Below are positions 6,430 to 34,519 of a stretch of 64,000 bases of DNA, piece after piece. Under the pieces are notes generated by a model that saw only the letters and a program-made list of their open reading frames with translations, ran no database searches and was not told the origin of the DNA. The DNA is from Deltaproteobacteria bacterium (GTDB lineage Bacteria; Desulfobacterota; Desulfobaccia; Desulfobaccales; 0-14-0-80-60-11), in the NCBI GenBank assembly GCA_030018495.1, contig JASEFS010000001.1, positions 1 through 64,000 of the forward strand, read 5' to 3'. Position numbers and translations under genes: made by a program. Position 1 is the first letter of the stretch; the number at the start of each line of letters is the position of its first letter.

Positions 6430-6496
6430 GGCAGTCAGCAGCGAGCAGTGAGCAGACAGCAGTCAGCAGTCAGCAGTCAGCAGTCAGCAGTCAGAT
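6430..6496. repeat. Degenerate heptanucleotide array (CAGTCAG type)
   Basis: About nine tandem copies of a 7-base unit close to AGCAGTC, with variants such as AGCAGTG and AGCAGAC. It lies between the rpsB promoter region and the end of the MFS gene. Related 7-base arrays with different unit sequences recur near 18.1, 33.5, 39.9, 40.9, 60.8 and 64.0 kb. Confidence 0.8.
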
Positions 6497-6545
6497 ATTG
6501 AAACACGTTAACCTTGAACTTTGAACCTTGAACCTTGAACTCACC

Positions 6546-33126: not shown

Positions 33127-33245
33127 AAAGGTTAACCACAAAGACACAAAGATAGACAAAGCAAGAAAAGGAGGGTTGCGGAAGCAGCCCTCCTTTCTTA
33201 TTTCTGGGAAAACTTTGCGCCTTTGCGCCTTTGTGGTTTTATACC

Positions 33246-34250
33246 TTATGCCGCGTCCCAAAGGCAGGGGCCATAAGTCCAGGAGGATCTGTGCACACTC
33301 AGGAGGCCCCAGCCGCAGCCCTGGGGGGCGAGACCGGGTTGAAGGCGGCGCGGCGTGCCCTCAAGAGGCGAGGGCAAAGGCCAGGCGGTGGCAGGGATGG
33401 GGAGGTTTTTGGTTTTTGGTTTCTGGTTTTTGGTGGTAAATGTTGTAGTAAAAAGCAGTTTGCTAAAAAGGTCGCCTTCTGACCACTGACCACTGATCAC
33501 TGACCACTTCTCTATTCCCGGCCACTGACCACTATCCACTGGCCACTCACTCCTGGCACCTGGCACCTGGCACCTGACACCTGCATGGTGAACATGGCCG
33601 TGGAGAAAAATCACGCGCCGGAACCGGGCCAGGTGCGGCGCCAGGCGGTGGGCGTCCGCGGTCCACTGCCGCCAAGGCTGGAAGATGGGGTTTAAGGGCG
33701 CGTGGGACAGGATAATGAGGGGTGCGGCGGGGTCCAGACGCCGGAGCTCCTGGGCCAGCCAGCGCAGTTGGCCCTCGCCTAAAGTGAAGGCACGGCCGTC
33801 AGGGGGCCGGCCCAGGGCGGTGTTGAGGCCGATGATATGAACGCCCTGAGAATTGCGGGCGAAGCGGTCCTCACCGAATAAGAGCTTCCAGGCCGTGGAT
33901 TCAGCGGGGCCGTCGCCTTCGCCCCGCACCGGGAGAAGAGGGAACGGGAGTTCGGAGAGGATTTCCCGGCCTAAGGCCAGGGCCTGGGGGTTGCCGTTAT
34001 GGGCCAGGTCCCCGGCGAAGAGCACCAGGTCCGGGGCGGCCTTGAGGACCTTGATCTCAGCCACCGCCCGGGCCAAAGCCAGGGCTTCGGCTCGGGCCGG
34101 GTCGCCGTTTTTCAAATGCGCATCGGCCAGGAGGGCCAGTCGCAGGGGCGGGCTGCCGGCTTCGGTGGGGCGGGGGCAGGGGAGGCGGGTTATGCCCCAG
34201 GCTGAAGTCAGGGCCAGGCAAACATCTCTAAGGAAATCTCGGCGGTTCAT
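33246..34250 (-). CDS. Metallophosphoesterase with in-frame repeat insertion
   Basis: 334 residues. The N-terminus MNRRDFL followed by a hydrophobic stretch looks like a Tat export signal. Calcineurin-like motifs: LLADAHLKNGD (about 40-50), LVLFAGDLAHNGNP (76-88), ILSHAP (180-185) and HGHVHH (217-222). From about residue 225 to 283 the sequence is low-complexity (SGQWP/SGQWS units, then KNQKPKTKN), encoded by heptanucleotide repeats at about 33402-33578; afterwards family-like sequence resumes (PATAWPLPSPL). The insertion keeps the frame. Substrate unknown. Confidence 0.75.
   Translation of the reverse strand: MNRRDFLRDVCLALTSAWGITRLPCPRPTEAGSPPLRLALLADAHLKNGDPARAEALALARAVAEIKVLKAAPDLVLFAGDLAHNGNPQALALGREILSELPFPLLPVRGEGDGPAESTAWKLLFGEDRFARNSQGVHIIGLNTALGRPPDGRAFTLGEGQLRWLAQELRRLDPAAPLIILSHAPLNPIFQPWRQWTADAHRLAPHLARFRRVIFLHGHVHHAGVRCQVPGARSEWPVDSGQWPGIEKWSVISGQWSEGDLFSKLLFTTTFTTKNQKPKTKNLPIPATAWPLPSPLEGTPRRLQPGLAPQGCGWGLLSVHRSSWTYGPCLWDAA
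33402..33590. repeat. Heptanucleotide arrays inside the phosphoesterase gene
   Basis: Two adjoining arrays: TTTTTGG units (about 33403-33436) and CCACTGA units (about 33480-33545), followed by CCTGGCA units (about 33552-33582). On the minus strand they are read as part of the phosphoesterase. The same unit types occur between genes near 39.9-40.9 and 50.7 kb. Confidence 0.85.
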
Positions 34251-34519
34251 TGATTACCGGAAATGATGACCCACACCTATCGGCACAGGTGAGGACACCT
34301 GTGCCACCAGGGGCTTGTTATTATAGGTGAAGATTCTTTGTAATAAGATAGTGACCGCCCTCCGCGAGGGTTTTTTCCGGCGGGCGGTGCCCGCCGTGCA
34401 TGCACAGGCTGGAAAGCCTGTGCCACCGTGGGGTGTGGGGGGAGGGCAGGGGGGTTCCACGGGCTGGAAGCCCGTGCTACCTGATCAATGGCCCTTCCCC
34501 ACAAGCTTATTCGCCTTCC
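34251..34519. repeat. Cluster of CACAGGC/CACGGGC palindromes
   Basis: Three hairpins in 200 bases: GGCACAGGTG/CACCTGTGCC (34282-34305), CACAGGCT/AGCCTGTG (34403-34422) and CACGGGCT/AGCCCGTG (34458-34476). No gene is present. They lie between two minus-strand genes, hisB and the phosphoesterase. Confidence 0.75.

Follow-up and report, generated by a model that had tools for sequence, protein, structure and literature searches.

In-frame heptanucleotide arrays in a metallophosphoesterase and other genes of a family of Deltaproteobacteria

The metallophosphoesterase gene and its insert

The window analysed here, from a member of a family of uncultured bacteria, is a 64,000-nucleotide stretch of one contig, whose minus strand encodes a metallophosphoesterase that carries an insert containing seven-base-pair tandem repeats (Table 1). 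The protein scored 37.8 bits against the Pfam profile of calcineurin-like metallophosphoesterases (cut-off 21.5), and its metal-ligand motifs (D43, H45, G80-D81, H183 and H217-G218-H219-x-H221) were invariant in 16 aligned rows. Judged from the sequence, the MNRRDFL start resembles a Tat signal. The solved folds nearest to the model of the protein were the phosphodiesterases GpdQ and Rv0805 (Foldseek E 4e-11 to 3e-9), a likeness of fold at about 17–25% identity that concerns the host protein only. In the AF2 model (mean pLDDT 63.5; 9-row alignment), pLDDT was below 50 at residues 220–311, and strands were modelled at 312–319 and 324–331 in the part that follows the insert. From this model, the insert region is best read as a disordered loop adjacent to the active site.

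Table 1. The metallophosphoesterase gene and the parts of its insert (positions in the window)
Feature	Position	Strand	Basis or remark
Metallophosphoesterase gene with insert	33246..34250	minus	334 aa; ORF list and Pfam PF00149, E=3.6e-9
HGHVH metal-site motif	33588..33602	minus	directly before insert; HGHxH in all aligned orthologues
Whole insert region, 65 codons, HGHVH to ATAWP	33393..33587	minus	16 codons in f2 (sister family) orthologues
First K-orientation array, gene-sense CAGGTGC, 4.6 copies, read QVPGAR	33552..33583	minus	Tandem Repeats Finder
Degenerate copy beside second K-orientation array	33522-33541	minus	
Second K-orientation array, gene-sense CAGTGGT, 4.3 copies, read SGQWSVISGQW	33479..33508	minus	Tandem Repeats Finder
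Non-repetitive core, 44 nt, between K and M arrays	33435..33478	minus	
M-orientation array, gene-sense CCAAAAA, 4.4 copies, read TKNQKPKTKN	33404..33434	minus	Tandem Repeats Finder
Conserved C-terminal part (ATAWP...GCGW), in frame	33249..33392	minus	after insert; alignment

We call K the array orientation that is rich in G and T on the gene strand, and M the complementary orientation. Along the gene strand, HGHVH is followed by the CAGGTGC array, a degenerate stretch, the CAGTGGT array, the core, the CCAAAAA array and finally ATAWP; the K and M units within the gene are not complementary to each other. The initial annotation had marked about 59 codons between HGHVHH and PATAWPLP as an in-frame insertion, and we found that 33402-33578 is exactly codons 225–283 (59 codons) of the reading frame and keeps that frame throughout, although the region from HGHVH to ATAWP is 65 codons long. 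Both of the repeat readings that it gave, SGQW and KNQKPKTKN, are present in the translation. Its description of these codons as made of heptamers is only about half right by strict count, because the three clean period-7 arrays cover 93 of the insert's 195 nt and the remainder consists of degenerate copies and spacer. The repeat score of the insert was never equalled in 500 codon shuffles. As 7 shares no factor with 3, a unit lacking stops reads as one cyclic heptapeptide in every frame; an array of this sort can therefore be translated in whichever phase it falls, provided that its total length is divisible by three. We set aside the stop-free units as a sign of selection, as an open frame requires them and their presence is therefore survivorship.

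Heptamer arrays between genes

Scanning 224 kb of this contig at a score of 14 or more returned 22 period-7 arrays, against none in any of three third-order Markov copies. Over the same sequence periods 4–6, 9–11, 13 and 15 gave none, period 8 gave four, period 12 one and period 14, which is two units, 11; the period-7 arrays are not due to chance. The claim that the units in the gene also occur between genes elsewhere was borne out: related intergenic arrays are abundant, with 42 exact 18-mer matches of the TGGTTTT-type unit in this genome (the reversed-pattern control, at 27, is unfair because this pattern reads nearly the same backwards) and 100 matches of the CAGTGGT type at two or fewer mismatches (reversed pattern, 0). 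In eight sampled genomes of the family to which this genome belongs (f1; 680 kb, score threshold slightly below 14) we found 70 arrays, and the commonest size in these whole-contig samples was four full units (31/70). One f1 genome, G006, had no period-7 array in the 80 kb scanned. Three genomes of the sister family f2 (280 kb) held two arrays at score 14, and exact 18-mers of one unit, searched genome-wide, matched in four of 148 genomes sampled from the phylum. Arrays of AAAACAG occur in some f2 genomes (G025 and G028), and arrays are thus not confined to f1.

The orientation of these arrays follows the ends of genes. Most units here are not runs of G, and orientation was therefore scored by keto content. 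On the gene strand, f1 arrays no more than 12 nt from a stop codon were keto-rich in 51 of 60 cases, the stop itself often lying within the array; for arrays no more than 30 nt from a start codon the figure was only 4 of 41, the other 37 having the opposite orientation (stops versus starts, Fisher p=1e-14). This sample was partly picked by repeat pattern; in whole contigs alone, which were not, the counts were 17/23 at stops and 0/13 at starts (p=1e-5). Gene ends were called with a simple hexamer-based program, so single array-gene distances may be off, and two arrays were counted twice in the array and polarity tallies owing to overlapping stretches of contig C9. Of the neighbouring arrays with opposed orientation, 16 pairs had the order K-M and a single pair the order M-K. 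The K-core-M layout within the phosphoesterase gene copies this polarity of the intergenic arrays, K after stops and M before starts. We did not adopt the idea that K and M arrays are chosen to pair with each other, for which the signal was weak (10 of 16 K-M pairs with at most one mismatch versus 7.3 expected, p=0.08).

Intergenic heptamers of this class have already been described. Cyanobacterial genomes contain scattered heptanucleotide tandem repeats (STRR), which by description alone share the heptanucleotide tandem form with the f1 arrays and differ in unit sequence and host phylum. The GGGNATC-type heptamers of Xanthomonas and Nostoc, in the available passages of Rehm et al. (2015, PMC4692102), are 7-bp, mostly intergenic repeats with four units preferred, the sense strand lying near or overlapping stops and the antisense strand upstream of ORFs, with inverted pairs; related species often carry them at the same gene, and a minority lie within or overlap ORFs. 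The f1 arrays resemble them, as those passages present them, in period, four-unit mode, strand rule and inverted pairs, whereas the unit sequences differ and many unit types coexist in f1. The G-rich, quadruplex-able unit of that class was not found: GGGAATC, GGGGATT and GGGGACT had no copies in 945 kb, four GGG tracts were present in 5 of the 70 f1 arrays and 33 had at most one GG tract, and we reject quadruplex formation as a general reason for the f1 arrays. In marine Beggiatoaceae and others, the portions available from MacGregor (2015, PMC4679880) describe short arrays of TAACTGA direct repeats adjoining genes, mainly just upstream of start codons, for which a role in translation regulation was proposed; some lie inside ORFs, mostly at protein ends, readable in one orientation (LSVISYQ). 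There, as far as those portions go, one unit dominates and no orthologue series is given; its tandem form (2.6 units) had no copies in 945 kb here. Rickettsia palindromic elements (Ogata et al. 2000, 2002, as excerpted from the review PMC10969869) lie in frame in metabolic genes, where they are tolerated, and also outside genes, but these are palindromes of about 150 bp rather than 7-bp tandem arrays. The in-gene unit here likewise differs from a palindromic element of about 100–150 bp with terminal inverted repeats (Rickettsia or MITE type), as it consists of a K array, a core and an M array whose units are not complementary.

The insert in orthologues and arrays in other genes

The first 222 residues of the phosphoesterase found matches in 25 of the 59 genomes searched, including 16 of 22 from f1, and 18 loci reached the insert site (13 in f1, five in f2). 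All 18 run in frame to the downstream GxGW motif. The initial annotation had proposed comparing close relatives for absence of the 59 codons, and the five f2 orthologues indeed have 16 codons and no array at the site; repeat-free orthologues sharing the inserted residues, which it had named as the refuting outcome, were not seen among the 18 loci. The insert is not specific to this genome, and we reject a recent one-off insertion here, as all 13 f1 loci have 34–66 codons at the site and 11 of them carry a period-7 array. The order K, core, then M was present in 10 of the 13. With 65 codons this genome's insert is among the longest, five of the other twelve f1 loci having 37, and its extra length is mainly an additional GTGGTCA array. 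The peptide differs wholesale among relatives (QVPGAR, QLSAFS, QVSGFR, QGSGAR), and a similar TENRKPKTEN peptide ends the insert in most f1 orthologues. G018 has a different repeat-like insert in place of the M side. Four f1 loci (G008, G018, G019 and G021) have a second in-frame insert, before the LGL strand, which ends in KTENRKPKT-like residues; a GAAAACC array is clear there in G021, and the others read as KTKNEKRKT- or TDNGKQKT-like. Separately, some 30 residues (SPLQGTLTAPRPGLGPRGSGW...) are duplicated in tandem in the C-terminal part of the G018 protein (L016), beside a repeat-like insert.

This distribution suggests that the K-core-M unit was likely gained at the base of f1 or close to it, probably in a single ancestral event. 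The point of gain is not fixed, because the tree of the protein core places G003 beside f2 with a support of only 0.58. The inserts of G003 and G006 are long without clean arrays, so the longer loop may have arisen from something other than a repeat. These two loops also speak for ordinary low-complexity protein sequence unrelated to the intergenic repeats, but that reading is refuted at the DNA level, where the period is 7, not a multiple of 3, and the units are shared with intergenic arrays; we give it almost no credence. An artefact of assembly or binning might be suspected, as tandem arrays are easily mis-assembled and the named records are metagenome bins, yet the layout recurs, always in frame, in independently assembled genomes from different projects, and we consider such an error exceedingly improbable.

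Outside the insert, dN/dS of the core was about 0.23–0.38 in seven pairs, with dS high in the distant ones, and dN was well below dS in all seven; these values would fit a working but fast-changing enzyme. They are not very low, and six of the 22 f1 genomes, some of them incomplete, gave no match, as might be expected of a decaying pseudogene left open by chance. However, all 13 f1 orthologues stay in frame to the end with metal ligands and GxGW kept, and together with the excess of dS in every pair this makes decay very unlikely. A more serious alternative is that the arrays encode a selected, functional linker, such as a basic, charged segment covering the active site or a flexible tether, to which the 7-bp repeat is incidental. 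Retention of the site and of the K-then-M order in most f1 loci, the recurrent TENRKPKTEN-like ending and the start of the insert beside HGHxH speak for it. Against it, the same units occupy non-coding gaps in their hundreds, the peptide is completely different from one relative to the next, two f1 orthologues have no arrays and the region is disordered in the model; we judge a selected linker improbable, and the insert peptide may well have no role.

Arrays in frame were not limited to the phosphoesterase. We scanned around 40 pattern-picked stretches and the contigs of one relative. RibD of this genome (L138) has an in-frame array in its interdomain loop, which is 93 residues long versus 11–13 in f2 and in genus g2; this RibD additionally contains fragments of an intergenic inverted repeat unrelated to the arrays, indicating that such loops accept several repeat kinds. 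The RibD loop was read for 14 of 22 loci (missed in G008, G013, G009, G016, G006, G027 and G025; cut by a contig end in G005; a false match in G029 excluded). In PurF (L126:3065-4549), a GAAAACC array is read as residues before the catalytic CGVFG. Twenty of 22 PurF loci were readable: among the 15 from f1, eight had clear arrays, three partial or degenerate ones and four none, and no array was present in the five f2 loci. PurQ (L130) and RimO of G007 each have an in-frame array at the N-terminus, and the two conserved parts of a Mu-like prophage protein I (L104:3328-4650) are separated by about 90 residues read from K-type arrays (SGQWPVASGQ), which shows that arrays can enter a phage gene. 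As regards entry, be it by movement or by growth in place, these cases strengthen the earlier statement that arrays can move or expand into genes.

Turnover and origin of the coding arrays

Comparison of congeneric genomes showed how the coding arrays change. In the M array of the phosphoesterase, all four differences between G009 and G013 were the same change at the same phase of the unit, as were three of four between G012 and G007 at one phase; in the PurF array, all five differences between G002 and G017 were the same change at one phase. The length of the phosphoesterase insert was equal within each pair (117 nt in G009/G013, 111 nt in G012/G007). In three congeneric pairs, whole arrays have thus switched unit as a block with length kept. 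We also counted in-gene unit types across genomes, the counts including the gene's own matches and overlapping registers. CAGGTTT had 42 and 50 matches in the two g9 genomes whose phosphoesterase carries it, 6 and 2 in two of the other 20 f1 genomes and none in eighteen. The TGGTTTT type, with its 42 matches in this genome, had at most 11 in each of 21 others, and the AAAACAG type was most frequent in G009 (46 matches, the highest of 22 genomes). In-gene unit types thus tend to be common in their host genome, with exceptions: the match is not general, because CAGCTTT, the unit of g7 phosphoesterase genes, is about equally common in g9 and g5 genomes, whose own gene lacks it, and the lead of AAAACGG in G012 is slight (8 matches, one of them its own gene, versus 7 in G010).

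The best explanation overall, which we regard as quite probable, is that an old intergenic heptamer element resides in a loop of the phosphoesterase and is still turning over there. Its source would be the genome-wide 7-bp tandem arrays, usually of about four copies, which normally lie in gaps between genes with a fixed polarity, K starting at or just after stops and M ending just before starts. A K-core-M unit would have joined the gene near the base of f1, between HGHxH and the last strands, where a loop predicted to be disordered may tolerate it. Selection would preserve the reading frame as well as the C-terminal part, and the arrays would continue to be expanded, swapped and homogenised, presumably through whatever process drives change in the intergenic arrays, whether slippage, ectopic conversion or both. 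We suggest more tentatively, and with less than even confidence, that coding arrays are rewritten from the genome-wide intergenic pool by ectopic conversion or an unknown copying process. Were this so, a shift of the repeat fashion between genes would edit residues of core enzymes at several sites together while length and frame are kept.

The family-wide, in-frame occupation of several enzymes together with block rewriting looks new. The available passages of Rehm et al. report no family-wide in-frame occupation of enzymes, and among open-licence papers we found no report of these arrays in frame in this family, none that combines family-wide in-frame occupation with block turnover, and no papers for the peptide or repeat strings. 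The phosphoesterase offers a natural series, one site in 13 species with the outgroup state known, in which a non-coding tandem repeat became lasting protein sequence. The repeat in this series is still evolving as DNA and the reading frame records every surviving length change, which allows the origin and homogenisation of heptamer arrays, long described without a cause, to be asked about. For annotation, peptides such as ENRKPKT, SGQW and QLSAFS in f1 proteins should be taken as repeat readings and not as conserved domains.

Further repeats lie in the window. At 6431-6540, adjacent arrays of GCAGTCA (9 copies) and AACCTTG (4 copies) are situated just past the stop of a minus-strand gene. Between HflX and the phosphoesterase stop (33127-33245), another kind of intergenic repeat forms an inverted pair of sequences resembling AACCACAAAG and CTTTGTGGTT, which starts within a few bases of either stop codon. 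Upstream of the phosphoesterase, at 34262-34460, are cacaggctggaaagcctgtgccacc-type repeats, a kind that is also found in frame in this genome's RibD.
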